Shown in pieces: positions 2,025 through 23,706 of a stretch of 30,074 nt of DNA. Source of the DNA: a virus. Below the pieces are notes generated by a model that was not told the DNA's origin, made no database searches, and saw only the letters and a list, made by a program, of their open reading frames with translations. The stretch covers positions 1 to 30,074 of the IMG/VR virus record IMGVR_UViG_3300042294_000464. The stretch is one strand, 5' to 3'. A program made the translations under genes and the position numbers. Numbering within the stretch: position 1 is the first letter of the stretch; each line of letters opens with the position of its first letter.

Positions 2025-4339
2025 TGGCATTAGTCCTAGCGGATAGAGTATTAGAAACGACTACTGTCGCTGGTACAGGGAACGCTGCATTATCAGGCGC
2101 TCAAGCAAACTATCAACCATTTTCCGTAATCGGCAATGGTTCTACTACCTACTACACGATTGTAGACAATACAAACAACGAGTGGGAAGTGGGTGTTGGT
2201 ACTTATGTATCAGCAGGTAACTACATCTCCCGTGACACAGTGCTGTCATCATCTAACGGTGGTGCATTGGTCTACTTTGGTAGCGGTGACAAGGATATAT
2301 TCCTAGACCTACCATCAGAGGCTGTGTTATTGAGTGCTGGTGATGTAACTGGCCCTGCTAGTGCTGTAGCCAACAACTTTGCTGCGTTCAACATGACCAC
2401 AGGCAAGCTAATTAAGGATAGTGGCTATAACGCTTCTAGCTTTGCTACTGCCGCTCAAGGTGCTAAGGCTGATACGGCTGTGCAACCAGGCTCACTAGGT
2501 TCGGCTGCTTACTTAACTGCTGGTGCAGCTAACGGTGTAGCGACACTAGACGCTGGTGGTAAAGTGCCAACAAGTCAAATCCCACAAATGGGTGACTTAA
2601 ACTATCAAGGCACATGGAACGCATCTACTAACACGCCTACATTAACTAGCTCTGCTGGCACTAAAGGCTTTTACTATGTCGTGTCAGTTGCTGGTTCTAC
2701 TAACCTAAATGGCATTACCGATTGGAAAGTAGGCGATTGGGCTGTGTTTAACGGCTCTGTATGGGAAAAGATAGACAACACGGATGCTGTGACCTCTGTA
2801 AACGGTTTTACAGGCACTGTCGTATTAACGGCTAGTGATGTAGGCGCTCAACCTGCTGGCACTTATGTGACCTCTGTAAGCGCTACAAGCCCTGTTACAA
2901 GCTCTGGTGGCACAACCCCTACTATTGCTATGCCAGCCGCTACTACAAGCGTGTCAGGTTACCTTGCTAGCGCTGATTGGACTACATTTAACGGCAAACA
3001 AGATGCGTTTGGAAGCCAAACAGCTAATTATGTTTACGCAGCTCCTAATGGTTCTGCTGGTGCGCCAACATTCAGAGCATTGGTTGGTGCGGACATTCCA
3101 TCTTTGTCTAGCACATACATACCATACACAGGCGCAAGTAGTGCAATTAATCTAAACGCACAAACAGTAGTCAATGTTGACCACTTAGGTATAGGCACTA
3201 CATCAGTTCCTACTATTTTAGTAAGGGCAATAGGCGATAACAACTCAAGCTCTCGAATAGCAGTTCGTGGCTATTCTAGCAATGCTAACAGCTCATCAAT
3301 GCGAGTTACTAAATTCAGAGGCACTGCTGGTGCGCCTCAAGCACCACAAAGCGGAGATAGCTTAGGTAAGTTTGAGTTAGCAGGTTACGGCACTACATCT
3401 TCAGAAGGTTACCCACAAGCGTCATTTGAAGGCGTTGCTACACAGAGTTGGGGTGCTACTGCTAGGGGAGCTAAGACTTTAATTAAAGTTACGCCTAACA
3501 ATACAATAACGCAAGTTACAGCCGTAACTGTAGACCAAGATAGCAAAGTAACCTTGGCTGGTGCATTAGATGTAACAGGCACAACTACACTAGCTACATC
3601 ATTAAGTGGTTTGGCTAAACTAACATCGGGTGTAGTGTCTGCTGCAACAAGTGGCACAGATTACGCTCCAGCTACATCAGGCACATCTATTCTTTACGGT
3701 AACGGCTCTGGTGGCTTTAGCAATGTAACAATAGGCACAGGCGTATCATTTGCTGGTGGCACATTATCTGCTACAGGTTCAGGCGGTACAGTAACTAGCG
3801 TAACAGGTACAGCCCCTATTGCGTCTACTGGTGGTGCTACACCTGCTATTAGCATTAGCCAGGCTACTACAAGCACAGATGGCTACTTGTCTAGCACAGA
3901 TTGGAATACATTTAACAATAAATCCAATACTACTGGCACTGTAACTAGTGTAGGCGGTACAGGCACAGTCAATGGTATTACGCTAACAGGCACAGTCACT
4001 AGCTCAGGCAACCTAACACTAGGTGGCACATTAGGTGGCATTGGTAACAGTCAGCTAACTAACTCTGCTGTAACGGTAGGTACGACAGCAATCAGCTTAG
4101 GCAGTAGCTCTACTACACTAGCTGGCTTGACTTCAGTTACCTCAACTAACTTAACAGCAACGGCTGCGGTAACAGGTTCAGTAGTATCAGCAACAAACGG
4201 TTTAGTAATAAACAACATGACAATTGGTGCAAGCTATACCATCCCTACAGGCTACTCAGCTAGTTCTGTAGGTGCAGTAACGATAGCAAGTGGTGTAACG
4301 GTAACCGTGCCTAGTGGCTCAAGATGGGTAGTTTTATAA
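2024..4339 (+). CDS. Large tail fibre protein with repeated modules
   Basis: A 771-residue fibre-like protein rich in Gly, Ser, Thr and Ala. The first ~105 residues (MALVLADRVLETT, then GNGSTTYYTIVD and SRDTVLSSSNGG) are the conserved N-terminal virion-attachment domain seen in many phage fibres. The shaft carries two copies of a module of the type TSV-x-TxP-SxGGxTP-TTSxxGYL-S-DWxTFNxK, at about residues 279-327 and 587-632. The C-terminus ends SGVTVTVPSGSRWVVL, a cap also found on the fibre at 19073-19765. It probably forms a trimeric fibre used in host recognition. It starts by TAATG coupling to the portal stop. The position between portal and scaffold, rather than after the tail genes, is notable. 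The exact receptor is unknown. Confidence 0.85.
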   Translation: MALVLADRVLETTTVAGTGNAALSGAQANYQPFSVIGNGSTTYYTIVDNTNNEWEVGVGTYVSAGNYISRDTVLSSSNGGALVYFGSGDKDIFLDLPSEAVLLSAGDVTGPASAVANNFAAFNMTTGKLIKDSGYNASSFATAAQGAKADTAVQPGSLGSAAYLTAGAANGVATLDAGGKVPTSQIPQMGDLNYQGTWNASTNTPTLTSSAGTKGFYYVVSVAGSTNLNGITDWKVGDWAVFNGSVWEKIDNTDAVTSVNGFTGTVVLTASDVGAQPAGTYVTSVSATSPVTSSGGTTPTIAMPAATTSVSGYLASADWTTFNGKQDAFGSQTANYVYAAPNGSAGAPTFRALVGADIPSLSSTYIPYTGASSAINLNAQTVVNVDHLGIGTTSVPTILVRAIGDNNSSSRIAVRGYSSNANSSSMRVTKFRGTAGAPQAPQSGDSLGKFELAGYGTTSSEGYPQASFEGVATQSWGATARGAKTLIKVTPNNTITQVTAVTVDQDSKVTLAGALDVTGTTTLATSLSGLAKLTSGVVSAATSGTDYAPATSGTSILYGNGSGGFSNVTIGTGVSFAGGTLSATGSGGTVTSVTGTAPIASTGGATPAISISQATTSTDGYLSSTDWNTFNNKSNTTGTVTSVGGTGTVNGITLTGTVTSSGNLTLGGTLGGIGNSQLTNSAVTVGTTAISLGSSSTTLAGLTSVTSTNLTATAAVTGSVVSATNGLVINNMTIGASYTIPTGYSASSVGAVTIASGVTVTVPSGSRWVVL

Positions 4340-4349
4340 AGGAAAAAAT

Positions 4350-4913
4350 ATGGCTTCAACGATAAATGCCTCAACTGCTGGTGTAGGTGGTGTAATTACC
4401 ACAGCAGATAATACTGGCAACTTAAACATACAAAGCGGTGGCACTACTAAAGTAGCTATTACATCGGCAGGTGTAGGAATTGTTGGCACAACGACTAACA
4501 ATGACGCTAGTGCAGGATATGTTGGTGAATATATTCAAAGTGTCGTAGCTGCCGATAGTGTAACGGCTGCTGCTAATGGGGTATATAAAGACTTAACATC
4601 AATAACATTGACTGCTGGTGATTGGGATGTAACATTTTTAATGGATATAAATAATGTTGGTGCAGCAGCAACATTGTATGGTGGCGGTATAGGAACAGCG
4701 ACTGGAAACTCAGCAACAGGTTTAGTGATAGGTTCAAACTTTCTCTATACAGGGGGAACGGTATCCGTTGGCGCAAATACGGGTATTGCTATACCTTCTT
4801 ACAGAATATCCATAGCTAGTACCACTACATATTACGGCAAATGTATTGCTTATTACCCAGCTGGTGGTCCACCTAAATTTGGTGGTCGTGTTTCTGCAAG
4901 GAGAGTTAGATAA
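4350..4913 (+). CDS. Short fibre-like virion protein
   Basis: 187 residues. The N-terminal ~45 residues (MASTINASTAGVGGVITTAD, then SGGTTKVAITSAGVGI) match a beta-rich leader common to small phage fibre and appendage genes. The remainder looks like a jelly-roll-type tip ending in basic residues (GGRVSARRVR). The start follows a good AAGGAAAAA ribosome site 10 bases after the previous fibre stop. It is probably a receptor-binding or decorative spike component cotranscribed with its neighbours. Function is inferred from composition and position; no enzymatic motif is visible. Confidence 0.65.
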   Translation: MASTINASTAGVGGVITTADNTGNLNIQSGGTTKVAITSAGVGIVGTTTNNDASAGYVGEYIQSVVAADSVTAAANGVYKDLTSITLTAGDWDVTFLMDINNVGAAATLYGGGIGTATGNSATGLVIGSNFLYTGGTVSVGANTGIAIPSYRISIASTTTYYGKCIAYYPAGGPPKFGGRVSARRVR

Positions 4914-20008: not shown

Positions 20009-20181
20009 ATCAACAACAAAAATTAGAGGCATTGTTTGACAAGTTAGTTGGTCAAAGAATTGACGAAGTTGGTATTGACAACGATGAGTTTGTAATGTAT
20101 ACAGAGGATGGCACTTGCGTAGTGCTTTTCTCTGATGAGGACTTACAACTATATTATGAGCTTCCTGACAAAACCCACTAA
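20005..20181 (+). CDS. Small acidic phage protein
   Basis: 58 residues (MNQQQKLEALFDKLVGQRID, then EVGIDNDEFVMYTEDGTCVV), found by reading the frame that starts in the ATGA overlap at 20005-20008. It is strongly acidic with an alpha then beta pattern resembling small phage 'I-x-x-V-x-x-D-x-x-x-F-x-x-x-T-E-D-G' proteins. It overlaps the metallophosphoesterase gene by 26 bases. Function unknown. Confidence 0.6.
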   Translation: MNQQQKLEALFDKLVGQRIDEVGIDNDEFVMYTEDGTCVVLFSDEDLQLYYELPDKTH

Positions 20182-20935
20182 GACACACTTCGTGTTGCCT
20201 GATGTCCAGGCTAAAGATGGCAATGACTTTACATTCCTAACCTGCATAGGTAAATACCTTGTAGACAAAAAGCCTGATGTAATTATATGTATAGGGGACT
20301 TCGCTGATATGGAGTCCCTTTCTTCTTATGATGTGGGTAAAAAGTCATTTGAAGGTCGTAGCTACCAAAAAGATATTTGGGCTGCTAGAGAGGCTATGGA
20401 TGCCCTTCTACAGCCTATATATGACTACAACAAACAAGCCAAAAGTTTTAAACACAAGCAATACAAACCTCGCATGGTTTTAACGCTTGGCAACCATGAA
20501 GACCGTATTAATCGTGCCATTAACGAGGATAGGAAGCTAGACGGCCTTATCTCCATTGATGACTTGCCTTACCAAGACTGGGAAGTTATCCCATTCCTAG
20601 AGGTTATCGTAATTGATGGCATAGCTTACGCTCACTACTTTACATCGGGTGCTATGGGCAGACCTATTGGCTCTAGTGCAGCACTACTATCTAAAAAGCA
20701 CATGAGTTGCTTTGCTGGCCACCAACAAGGCAGACAAATCTCTTACGCTATGAAAGCTAATGGTCAAGAGATGACAGCTATTATTTGCGGATCGTGTTAC
20801 GAGCATAATGAGGACTACTTAGGCGCTCAAGGTAACAATCACTTTCGTGGGTGCTATATGCTATACGATGTAGAGGATGGTCGTTTTGACGAATTGCCAC
20901 TAACACTCAAATACCTTAAGAGTAAGTATGCCTAG
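20156..20935 (+). CDS. Metallophosphoesterase
   Basis: 259 residues from ATG 20156; another in-frame ATG at 20135 gives seven more residues, and neither has a strong ribosome site. Calcineurin-like phosphoesterase motifs are in order: Asp16 in VLPDVQ (the usual D-x-H has Gln instead of His), GDFAD at 47-51, GNHED at 112-116, His160 in AHYFTS and GHQQG at 188-192. These coordinate a dimetal centre that hydrolyses phosphodiesters or phosphomonoesters, but the substrate cannot be told. Proteins of this type occur beside lysis genes of many podoviruses. Its stop codon lies in the stem of a terminator. Confidence 0.82.
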   Translation: MSFLTKPTKTHFVLPDVQAKDGNDFTFLTCIGKYLVDKKPDVIICIGDFADMESLSSYDVGKKSFEGRSYQKDIWAAREAMDALLQPIYDYNKQAKSFKHKQYKPRMVLTLGNHEDRINRAINEDRKLDGLISIDDLPYQDWEVIPFLEVIVIDGIAYAHYFTSGAMGRPIGSSAALLSKKHMSCFAGHQQGRQISYAMKANGQEMTAIICGSCYEHNEDYLGAQGNNHFRGCYMLYDVEDGRFDELPLTLKYLKSKYA

Positions 20936-21628: not shown

Positions 21629-21987
21629 TAGGTGAATTTATAGCAACATTGTTTTTAGCCCGTGATGTAGCACACAGAGAACATCTACGCACTAAAAGTT
21701 ATTCTCAACACAAAGCATTAGGCCACTTTTATGAAGACATAGCTGGTATAGCTGACAAGCTTACAGAAGCCTACCAAGGCCGTTATGGGATCATTAAAGA
21801 GATACCCATATTGACCGAGGAAGAGAAGTATAAAGAGCCTCTATATTGCCTAGCTGGCAAATTAGCTTACATAGAGAAAAATCGCTACAAGTGCATACCT
21901 AAAGAGGATTCTGCGTTACAGAACATTGTGGATGAGGTAGTAGGCGAGTTCTTAAGCTTGATCTACAAGTTGGAAAACCTTAAATGA
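21625..21987 (+). CDS. Conserved phage helical protein of unknown function
   Basis: 120 residues, mostly helical. The N-terminal block ATLFLARDVAHREHLRTKSY followed by SQHKALGHFYEDIAGIADKL and TEAYQGRYG resembles a phage family (DUF5856-like) with conserved H-x-x-H-L-x-T-x-S-Y-x-x-H-x-A-L. The His/Glu-rich pairing might suggest a ferritin-like bundle, but that is speculation. It is coupled by ATGA overlaps on both sides and lies directly before the endolysin gene. Confidence 0.55.
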   Translation: MIGEFIATLFLARDVAHREHLRTKSYSQHKALGHFYEDIAGIADKLTEAYQGRYGIIKEIPILTEEEKYKEPLYCLAGKLAYIEKNRYKCIPKEDSALQNIVDEVVGEFLSLIYKLENLK

Positions 21988-22421
21988 AGTTGAGCGAGCA
22001 TTTTACGCTTGAGGAATTAACATTCTCACAAACAGCAGTTCGCAACGGCATAAACAACAACCCATCCCAAGCAGTTAGAAACAACCTTAAAACACTAGCT
22101 GACAACCTTGAGAAAATACGCACATTCTTAGGCCATCCATTACGGATTAGCTCTGCATTTCGTTGCATGGAGCTTAATCGCAAGATAGGCGGTTCTGTAA
22201 ACTCTGCACACATGGACGGTTTAGCTGCTGACTTTACTTGCGCTGGTTTTGGCAAGCCTATTGATGTAGTAAAAGCTTTATTTAAGTCTGGCATTAAAGT
22301 AGACCAAGTTATTGAGGAAGGCGCTTGGGTTCATGTATCGTTTGACCCTAAAATGCGTCAGCAATTCTTAACGGCAACCTTTATGAACGGCAAGCCATCT
22401 TACAAACCTTTTAAGGAGTAA
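21984..22421 (+). CDS. Endolysin, peptidase M15 family
   Basis: 145 residues. The M15 zinc peptidase signature is complete: RISSAFRCMELNRKIGGSVN then SAHMDGLAADF with His76 and Asp83, and WVHVSF with His117. These residues bind the zinc that cleaves peptide cross-links in peptidoglycan. The short single-domain form without a signal peptide implies that a holin is needed to release it, and one is encoded directly downstream. The start is by ATGA overlap with the preceding gene. Confidence 0.85.
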   Translation: MKLSEHFTLEELTFSQTAVRNGINNNPSQAVRNNLKTLADNLEKIRTFLGHPLRISSAFRCMELNRKIGGSVNSAHMDGLAADFTCAGFGKPIDVVKALFKSGIKVDQVIEEGAWVHVSFDPKMRQQFLTATFMNGKPSYKPFKE

Positions 22422-22423
22422 TT

Positions 22424-22591
22424 ATGAAAGCATTTTTATTAGCCCGTGGCAAAGAATCATCTACATGGAGGGGTCTAGTAGCCCTTTTAACAGCCGTAGG
22501 CTTGACTTTATCACCAGAGCAAGGTGAAGCTATTGTCGCACTCGGTTTAAGCGTTATAGGCGCTTTAGGCGTGTTTACAGCAGACAAATGA
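22424..22591 (+). CDS. Holin
   Basis: 55 residues, preceded by AAGGAGTA. The sequence ESSTWRGLVALLTAVGLTLS, then PEQGEAIVALGLSVIGALGV, has two hydrophobic helices (~residues 16-28 and 36-52) separated by a short SPEQ turn. This is a common phage holin type, recognisable by the 'K-E-S-S-T-W-R-G' start and 'S-P-x-Q-x-x-A-I' turn. It would permeabilise the inner membrane so that the M15 endolysin reaches the wall. It overlaps the next start by ATGA. Confidence 0.75.
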   Translation: MKAFLLARGKESSTWRGLVALLTAVGLTLSPEQGEAIVALGLSVIGALGVFTADK

Positions 22592-22794
22592 AATACCTGT
22601 TAGCAATCATAGATAGGTTGCTTGCTCTATACCAAGAGTGGGCAGCTAAAAAGGAGCAGAAAGATGTGCAACAAGAGAGTGAGCAAATTGAGGCAGCTCC
22701 TGCTGATTGGTTTGAGCAGCACTTTGATAGCTTGCACGACTACCATGCCAAAGCCGTATCCCCTCAAACCGACCCTCAACATCCAAAAGGTTGA
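22588..22794 (+). CDS. Rz-position protein (putative inner spanin subunit or accessory)
   Basis: 68 residues, starting in the ATGA overlap with the holin. The N-terminal helix YLLAIIDRLLALYQEWAAKK is amphipathic rather than a clear transmembrane segment because it contains Asp, Arg and Gln. An acidic region and WFEQHFDSLHDYHAKAVSPQ follow. The position between holin and a nested Rz1-like lipoprotein is that of Rz. The weak membrane anchor makes an i-spanin role uncertain; it may only be a carrier frame for the nested gene. Confidence 0.55.
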   Translation: MKYLLAIIDRLLALYQEWAAKKEQKDVQQESEQIEAAPADWFEQHFDSLHDYHAKAVSPQTDPQHPKG

Positions 22795-22867
22795 TGGTGG
22801 CATGTGTTTAAGTAAAGAAGACACAGCAAAGCTTGGTAAATATATACTTGAATTGGAAAGACGATAA
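22664..22867 (+). CDS. Rz1-like outer-membrane lipoprotein (o-spanin)
   Basis: 67 residues read in another frame inside the Rz-position gene. The start ATG 22664 has an ideal AAGGAG site at 22651-22656; the longer TTG start would bury the signal. The signal peptide LRQLLLIGLSSTLIAC carries a lipobox (L-I-A-C) with Cys24 as the lipidated residue, and a Pro-rich segment follows (TTTMPKPYPLKPTLN). Nested lipoprotein genes of this type are the outer subunits of Gram-negative phage spanins, which fuse the outer membrane at lysis. Confidence 0.75.
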   Translation: MCNKRVSKLRQLLLIGLSSTLIACTTTMPKPYPLKPTLNIQKVDGGMCLSKEDTAKLGKYILELERR

Positions 22868-22868
22868 T

Positions 22869-22983
22869 TAGTGCTTTTCACTAGATTGCATTAATAATCC
22901 TACCGATGTGTAAAAAACCTAATTCTGATACTATGTATCTTACAGTATACATTTCGTATGCTTTGTAAATTAGGAGATACATT
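22869..22983 (+). promoter_or_regulatory. pqqA upstream region with dyads and ribosome site
   Basis: The 116 bases between the spanin stop and pqqA contain a small hairpin TAGTG-CTTTT-CACTA at 22869-22883 and a dyad ATGTAT-n8-ATACAT at 22933-22952. A candidate extended -10 element, TGA then TACTAT, lies at 22926-22934, without a good -35. AGGAG at 22972-22976 is seven bases from the pqqA start, a near-ideal ribosome site. Promoter assignment is weak; the ribosome site is strong. Confidence 0.4.
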
Positions 22984-23055
22984 ATGTGGACAGCACCAGT
23001 AGCTACAGAAATGCGTTTTGGCTTTGAAGTTACAATGTATGTAATGAACAAGTAA
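22984..23055 (+). CDS. pqqA: PqqA, precursor peptide of pyrroloquinoline quinone
   Basis: A 23-residue peptide too short for usual gene calling. It begins MWTAP and contains RFGFEVTMY, with Glu15 and Tyr19 spaced E-x-x-x-Y. These are the two residues of PqqA that PqqE cross-links to build PQQ. Length, the MW-[TK]-x-P start, R11, G13 and the F-E-V-T-M-Y core agree with bacterial PqqA of the 23-residue Pseudomonas/methylotroph type (established family knowledge). AGGAG is placed seven bases upstream. Departures are Ala4 for the common Lys, Val20-Met21 after the Tyr, and Lys23 for Arg. No pqqB, C, D, E or F is in the window, so host enzymes would be required. Its location between phage lysis genes and a convergent phage operon makes it a viral gene. 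Confidence 0.9.
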   Translation: MWTAPVATEMRFGFEVTMYVMNK

Positions 23056-23132
23056 TTGTTTTTAGGCGGTTAAGCCGACATTAGAGGATGTAGTAAGTAG
23101 CGAGTTTTTCGGCTTTCTGCGTTACATGTAAC
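23047..23132. other. Convergent intergenic region with inverted repeats
   Basis: A weak terminator-like hairpin AACAA-GTAA-TTGTT followed by TTT overlaps the pqqA stop (23047-23063). A larger perfect 7-bp inverted repeat, AAGCCGA (23072-23078) and TCGGCTT (23109-23115), encloses a 30-base loop. A perfect 12-base palindrome GTTACATGTAAC lies at 23121-23132. The region separates plus-strand late genes from the end of the minus-strand operon, so it likely acts in bidirectional termination; the palindrome could be a binding site. Confidence 0.4.
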
Positions 23133-23143
23133 AACTACCAAAT

Positions 23144-23245
23144 CTACGCCTTACTTGTTTTATAAACAATAAACGCTCCGCAAACTAGACCCATTCCAAA
23201 AGCTGTGGAATAGCACAGCACATAACTAATTATTGTTTGTAACAT
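23144..23245 (-). CDS. 33-residue single-span membrane microprotein
   Basis: Minus-strand frame MLQTIISYVLCYSTAFGMGL, then VCGAFIVYKTSKA: nearly all of residues 4-28 are hydrophobic, followed by a lysine-containing tail (positive-inside). It starts 20 bases inside the upstream DUF3310 gene and would be translated by coupling; no strong ribosome site is visible. It is the last gene of the minus operon. Function unknown; existence is supported by hydrophobic organisation and operon overlap only. Confidence 0.42.
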   Translation of the reverse strand: MLQTIISYVLCYSTAFGMGLVCGAFIVYKTSKA

Positions 23246-23495
23246 CGTATACCGTCCGTAAGATTAATTCACAATAGTGTATAGCTTTTTTTACATCGTC
23301 AGCACCGTTTTTAGCATGATGCCTGGATATATACTTAACCACATTACCCTCAAGAAAAGTTAGGTTATTGGCCACTATAAACTCTACTGGCTGTATGGCC
23401 ATACTAGCGTAGTGATTGCCACCCACCTGTTTCATTAAAGCGTCCACTTGATCCATAGACTCTTCCCATGCTTGCTCTGACATACCATCACTCAT
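23226..23495 (-). CDS. DUF3310 family protein
   Basis: 89 residues from the ATG at 23495, which has AGGAG just upstream; a longer start at 23522 lacks this. The DUF3310 signature is clear: GGNHYASMAIQPVEFI (residues 25-40), then GNVVKYISRHHAKNGADDVK followed by KAIHYCELIL. The family is widespread in phages and often labelled a nucleotide kinase, but its biochemistry is not established; the helical pattern recalls MazG-like folds. It overlaps the upstream gene by 8 bases. Confidence 0.82.
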   Translation of the reverse strand: MSDGMSEQAWEESMDQVDALMKQVGGNHYASMAIQPVEFIVANNLTFLEGNVVKYISRHHAKNGADDVKKAIHYCELILRTVYDVTNNN

Positions 23496-23706
23496 AGTGT
23501 TCTCCTGTAGGGCCATTAGCACCCACTATGTCCATGCGTTTTTCGTCTTCTTCAGTCCACCAGGCTGGGTCTTTCTTTAATGCCTCTGTTAGCACGGCAA
23601 TAAAACCTCGCTCAATCAGCCATCGTTTAGCATCGTCATCCATGTCTATTTCACAGATAGCGCTGCCATCATCATTCTCTTTCATGTGTTTTACATTAAT
23701 AATCAT
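23488..23706 (-). CDS. Hypothetical acidic protein
   Basis: 72 residues (MIINVKHMKENDDGSAICEI, then DMDDDAKRWLIERGFIAVLT and EALKKDP). The pattern D-x-x-x-x-x-L-I-x-x-G-F-I-x-h-L-x-x-A-L occurs in small phage proteins of unknown function. GGAGG lies ten bases upstream of the start at 23706, which overlaps the previous stop (ATGA). Met8 is an alternative start. Part of the early minus-strand operon. Confidence 0.6.
   Translation of the reverse strand: MIINVKHMKENDDGSAICEIDMDDDAKRWLIERGFIAVLTEALKKDPAWWTEEDEKRMDIVGANGPTGEHYE

Follow-up and report, generated by a model that had tools for sequence, protein, structure and literature searches.

Does a frame of 23 codons in a virus genome encode a genuine precursor of the redox cofactor PQQ, and what would a virus gain from carrying one? 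The frame lies in an IMG/VR virus record, the whole 30,074 bases of which are referred to here as the window. In PQQ biosynthesis, PqqE cross-links the Glu and Tyr of PqqD-bound PqqA, and a protease, PqqB and PqqC finish the cofactor (PMC10906245). The window frame opens with ATG at 22984, closes with TAA at 23053-23055 and encodes MWTAPVATEMRFGFEVTMYVMNK, a peptide of 23 residues with an N-terminal Trp (W2) and a Glu-x-x-x-Tyr pair formed by E15 and Y19. The initial annotation had pointed to this frame, its AGGAG site and the Glu15/Tyr19 pair, all of which we confirm (Table 1), and had named the product PqqA. Profile searches uphold that name, as the peptide scored 34.4 bits (E 1.4e-8) against TIGR02107 and 36.5 bits (E 4.6e-9) against PF08042, above the curated cut-offs of 20 and 21.1 bits, respectively. 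This was the only PqqA match in the whole record and none was obtained in 14 control genomes; the match is therefore far beyond chance. The peptide also has the features expected of the family, namely a length of approximately 20-30 residues, an N-terminal Trp, a Shine-Dalgarno sequence of its own and a Glu/Tyr pair that could be cross-linked. Judged by family, by this pair and by its translation signals, the gene appears to be a host-derived pqqA of the functional type, and the competence of its product as a substrate is well supported.

Table 1. Features of the pqqA locus and its surroundings in the window
Feature	Position	Strand	Basis and remarks
M15 peptidase endolysin, upstream neighbour of pqqA	21984..22421	+	Family matches
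Small hydrophobic ORF, probable holin	22424..22591	+	Sequence and position
Overlapping ORFs (22588-22794 and 22622-22867), Rz/Rz1 spanin-like	22588..22867	+	Suggested by layout
Left border block of the pqqA slot	22868..22940		Conserved in relatives, including one without pqqA
Predicted stem-loop of the 5' leader, immediately before the Shine-Dalgarno sequence	22940..22968	+	-7.6 kcal/mol, z -1.47
AGGAG Shine-Dalgarno sequence, 7 nt before ATG	22972..22976	+	Sequence; SD-like motif in 163/169 viral copies
pqqA, PQQ precursor peptide	22984..23055	+	23 codons plus TAA; PqqA profiles
Right border block of the pqqA slot	23062..23225		Conserved in relatives; alignments of ~162-170 nt, 89-98%
DUF3310/nucleotide-kinase-like gene, convergent, downstream of pqqA	23226..23522	-	Family matches

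The window contains genes for a P22-like portal, the M15 endolysin, an ERF annealing protein and a DnaB-like helicase, and its major head protein shares ~53% identity with those of Stenotrophomonas phage BUCT555 and Myxococcus phage Mx8. It is a tailed phage, and its portal, capsid and lysis genes mark it as a genuine phage genome. Within the lysis region, the candidate holin had no match in family searches and the first of the two spanin-like ORFs had no Pfam match, while the second contains a lipobox-like LIAC motif. No integrase was detected among the scanned window proteins of a record that may be incomplete, nor was a methanol dehydrogenase among the same proteins, and pqqB-E are absent from the window. 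The window also encodes a calcineurin-like metallophosphoesterase (20135-20935, plus strand), a type of gene noted in related OM43 phage genomes (MEP401/MEP402 paper, PMC10580990).

In relatives of the window phage, whose endolysin genes are 86-96% identical to its own at the DNA level, pqqA occupies the same place and points the same way: it follows the Rz/Rz1-like genes, precedes the convergent DUF3310 gene and is flanked by the two border blocks, with both the frame and the Glu/Tyr pair retained, as the initial reading would have it. The slot itself is variable. In contig L316 (= L389) both border blocks are present at 3930-4140 and pqqA is absent; in contig L314 (= L392), positions 4393-4467 hold a diverged PqqA-like peptide, MAWTKPSATEHRIGFEITCYAMCR, in which the core has changed and the Glu and Tyr are kept; and in contigs L300 and L307-L310 other genes take the place of pqqA from ~3884, right after the Rz1-like gene. 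Another variant of the peptide, MWTKPAATEMRFGMEITAYVMNR, occurs in contig L396. Given retention at the same locus in some relatives, yet empty or differently filled slots in others, the pqqA slot is a site for variable accessory genes, at which pqqA is favoured but dispensable.

Among 84,980 species genomes, a pattern for EMRFGFEVTMYV matched 120 stretches or more. The majority of the matches listed belong to the Methylophilaceae or to groups within it (Methylotenera, Methylophilus, Methylovorus, Methylobacillus, Methylopumilus, OM43), and the rest of those listed carry broader labels only, such as Betaproteobacteria, Nitrosomonadales or Pseudomonadota. The PqqA of this family resembles that of the window in length, in at least 20 of 23 residues and in the layout of the Shine-Dalgarno sequence, and 3 of 69 bases separate the window gene from its nearest host counterparts. 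Because the peptide type is a signature of the family and the nearest host genes are so close, the host of the window phage is probably a Methylophilaceae methylotroph, in agreement with the methylotroph host proposed initially. Methylophilaceae, which include OM43 and LD28, are abundant methanol oxidisers of coasts and lakes, and their main energy comes from methanol oxidised by PQQ enzymes. All 121 Methylophilaceae genomes searched contain pqqA, in 1-12 copies each and mostly in several; even among genomes of 1.2-1.4 Mb, most retain 2-3 copies, which suggests that dosage matters. The orphan state of the window gene is itself the rule in hosts, in that pqqB-E are missing from the retrieved DNA of 97 of 120 host loci, while the other 23 contain pqqB, pqqC, pqqD or pqqE; neighbouring pqqB-E, usual for the operon copy, are thus no requirement of the family. 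PqqE scored above its cut-off in all seven host-family genomes tested. In Methylobacillus flagellatus, an Rfam Methylophilales-1 RNA (RF03011; L130:1205-1303) lies ~6 kb from one pqqA gene.

Using the window peptide as a tblastn query, we detected pqqA in all nine genomes of cultured Methylophilales phages that were found (P19250A, MEP301, Venkman, MEP401, MEP402 and four Melnitz variants; MEP431-434 and HIM624-A are not among them), as well as in the genome of a Manatee Spring podovirus. The isolate peptides are 77-91% identical to that of the window over 22-23 residues, and the isolates belong to phage lineages and morphotypes that differ from the window phage. None of the nine isolate records uses the name PqqA. 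In five of the ten records, counting Manatee Spring, the matching stretch bears no annotation at all, and the other five have only a hypothetical protein there, which in both of the two records inspected lies on the opposite strand. Text searches of the isolate papers (PMC9004378, PMC8024684, PMC10580990) likewise found no passage that attributes PqqA to a phage. In IMG/VR, a DNA-level pattern for GFEVTMY matched at least 120 stretches, and all of those listed encode a PqqA-like peptide. The initial annotation held that the rest of the pathway was missing and that the phage would depend on its host; this extends beyond the window, as pqqB, pqqC, pqqD and pqqE are absent from the retrieved DNA of 127 viral pqqA loci (the window and 126 others), and processing of the viral peptide would therefore depend on host enzymes. 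The same absence, together with the presence of pqqA in isolate genomes, rules out contaminating host DNA as the source of the viral genes. One candidate was discarded as most likely bacterial DNA, namely an unannotated pqqA assigned to Acinetobacter phage MD-2021a (L008, CAKLQF020000010) that lies beside pqqB, pqqC, pqqD and a radical-SAM gene.

In a near-identity DNA search, the window shared with P19250A, Venkman and the Manatee Spring phage only a patch of ~75-90 bp around pqqA, indicating that the gene is conserved, or mobile, independently of its surroundings. Clustering by shared ORFs did not cleanly separate the phage lineages, because genes are common between them. The alpha-proteobacterial type of PqqA was found in only two viral stretches in the whole IMG/VR scan, and carriage of pqqA by viruses is, as judged from peptide type, centred on the gamma/beta type. 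Other PqqA types, such as MKWSKPTYQKLRLGFEVTMYFKQV, occur on contigs with a phage portal gene (L032, L035 and L084, of which L035 also has a terminase), perhaps from phages of methanotrophic gammaproteobacteria.

Selection acts on the viral peptide. With a search pattern that left both codons free, Glu and Tyr were kept in every one of 143 distinct viral contexts, many of which had also been recovered by an earlier pattern that fixed the two residues; the Tyr codon was split between TAC (74) and TAT (69). Over 141 distinct viral genes pN/pS was 0.16, a value biased by the search pattern, compared with 0.14 in hosts; over all viral genes, at positions outside the pattern, it was 0.30. In 23 distinct genes from the window's own phage group, collected through their endolysin or DUF3310 neighbours and not through pqqA, pN/pS was 0.10, bearing out the expectation that related phages would hold the gene under purifying selection. 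Synonymous sites of viral pqqA are strongly diverged (pS 0.57); conservation is therefore at the level of the peptide and not of the nucleotides. Viral pqqA is under purifying selection and is neither isolated nor decayed. The window gene is consequently a host metabolic gene that lies in a genuine phage genome and is maintained by purifying selection, a combination expected of an auxiliary metabolic gene, which would also alter host metabolism during infection.

The viral gene also has upstream signals of its own. It is intergenic in 96 of 106 viral loci examined and its upstream neighbour is on the other strand in 47 of 103, and many viral copies would therefore need their own promoter. Within 100 nt upstream, 39 TATAAT boxes occur in 103 non-redundant viral copies against 20.1 expected (sd 4.5), with a peak 40-60 nt before the ATG, whereas 125 host copies have a single box against 9.8 expected, a depletion. 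The window copy showed no sigma-70 promoter above shuffled sequences, and may be transcribed together with the lysis operon. Viral copies are enriched in a stem-loop just before the Shine-Dalgarno sequence, 32% reaching p<0.05, and so are host orphan copies, at 38%, but not the loci with the host pqq operon (0 of 21); other genes of the same phages show no such enrichment (mean z -0.07, versus -1.23 for viral pqqA). In viral and host orphan genes alike the sequence of the stem-loop varies while its position is similar. In the window, 2% of shuffles fold equally well, over a slightly different stretch, and an Rfam search of the leader gave no family match. Protection of a short mRNA and keeping the Shine-Dalgarno sequence open are possible roles.

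We favor the explanation, at a probability of roughly 0.7, that this is a functional, host-derived pqqA acting as a tiny auxiliary metabolic gene, whose added dosage sustains PQQ-dependent methanol oxidation during infection. Against it stand the dispensability of the gene among relatives and the lack of a convincing promoter for the window copy. The initial annotation had raised the alternative of a decoy on the strength of residues that it took to be altered. In this view the phage peptide would occupy PqqD and PqqE, lower PQQ synthesis and make available to the phage what the host would otherwise spend on methanol oxidation, and inhibition by substrate-like peptides is possible. However, Val20 is found in 129, Met21 in 89 and Lys23 in 94 of 130 distinct host pqqA genes, and Ala4 in 4, so that the supposed alterations are residues of host PqqA and the argument built on them was dropped. 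Moreover, a decoy could lose the Glu and Tyr, which are needed for the chemistry and not for PqqD binding, yet both are invariant. A decoy is thus distinctly unlikely, and supply of precursor is the better supported reading. A different objection is that the peptide, or PQQ itself, serves regulation, signalling or antioxidant defence rather than methanol dehydrogenase. Other uses of PQQ do exist, but these hosts depend chiefly on PQQ enzymes that oxidise methanol, and it is mostly their phages that carry this gene type, the alpha-proteobacterial type being so rare among viruses; we consider this alternative unlikely.

Two further possibilities would deny the peptide any function in the phage. 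The closeness of the coding DNA to that of the nearest host gene and the variability of the slot among relatives could reflect a recently captured host fragment carried as a passenger, but this is very improbable in light of strong amino acid constraint alongside many silent changes, the occurrence of pqqA in several phage lineages and the phage-specific TATAAT boxes. Alternatively, the DNA itself might be what counts, perhaps as a copy of host pqqA that serves for integration; host pqqA genes are numerous and short, and the near-identity of the window phage to others is indeed confined to the patch around pqqA. The strong synonymous divergence of the viral genes and the lack of an integrase among the scanned proteins of this possibly incomplete record speak against it, and we regard it as scarcely credible.

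Each PQQ made uses up one PqqA, whereas the enzymes of the pathway are reused; therefore, adding the substrate gene alone, at a cost of 72 bases, would be the cheapest way to raise cofactor supply. Under the favored reading of functional precursor supply, host PqqD, PqqE, protease, PqqB and PqqC would convert the phage peptide to PQQ. Phage pqqA would sustain the cofactor supply of methanol dehydrogenase, and thereby energy and formaldehyde flow, at the stage of infection when host pqqA transcripts would fall. Expression during infection, processing by host PqqE and a gain in phage yield would all be expected. Sustained methanol oxidation as the benefit is likewise suggested by host methylotrophy and, by analogy, by the methanol dehydrogenase genes of Lake Baikal phages (PMC7678222). 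A study of a methylotroph carrying five copies of pqqA observed that expression of the most active ones increased along with PQQ production (PMC9851590).

Viral pqqA is a kind of gene already known. The initial annotation knew of no characterised example, and while PqqA has been reported in the Lake Baikal T4-like phage population VP_266 (PMC7678222) and viral pqqA was listed in reservoir sediment in a 2026 survey (PMC13188868), neither amounts to experimental characterisation; the statement therefore stands for characterisation and fails for prior reports. Like the window gene, the VP_266 gene is in a phage assigned to Methylophilaceae; VP_266, however, is T4-like and has a methanol dehydrogenase, whereas the window phage has its P22-like portal and Mx8-like capsid. 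For phages of this host family that carry methanol dehydrogenase the same purpose has been proposed, and P19250A was stated to encode none of the proposed genes (PMC7678222), contrary to our tblastn result. We found no account of the extent of viral pqqA, of evidence for its conservation or of the regulatory contrast between viral and host copies in the literature searched, most subscription journals and bioRxiv lying outside it. What is new here is the near-ubiquity of the gene, its absence from isolate annotation and its phage-specific upstream signals. In sharing a leader stem-loop the window gene is like orphan Methylophilaceae pqqA; unlike the host gene, it is virus-borne without pqqB-E and belongs to a class with TATAAT boxes that host copies lack.

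A broader proposal, to which we give even odds, is that pqqA is a near-hallmark of Methylophilaceae phages, in podovirus as well as myovirus lineages, that its shortness has caused it to be missed, and that it travels as a mobile unit of leader stem-loop, Shine-Dalgarno sequence and 23 codons in which the host promoter has been replaced by a housekeeping-type one. Being among the smallest conceivable auxiliary metabolic genes, pqqA shows that gene callers overlook genes of this kind, and viral pqqA provides a sequence marker by which viral contigs can be linked to Methylophilaceae. By encoding a substrate for a key redox cofactor of these hosts, a virus would tie infection directly to one-carbon oxidation. 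If the broader proposal is true, supply of PQQ precursor would be limiting, and viruses of methanol oxidisers would in general lift that limit by supplying only the one substrate that the pathway consumes.
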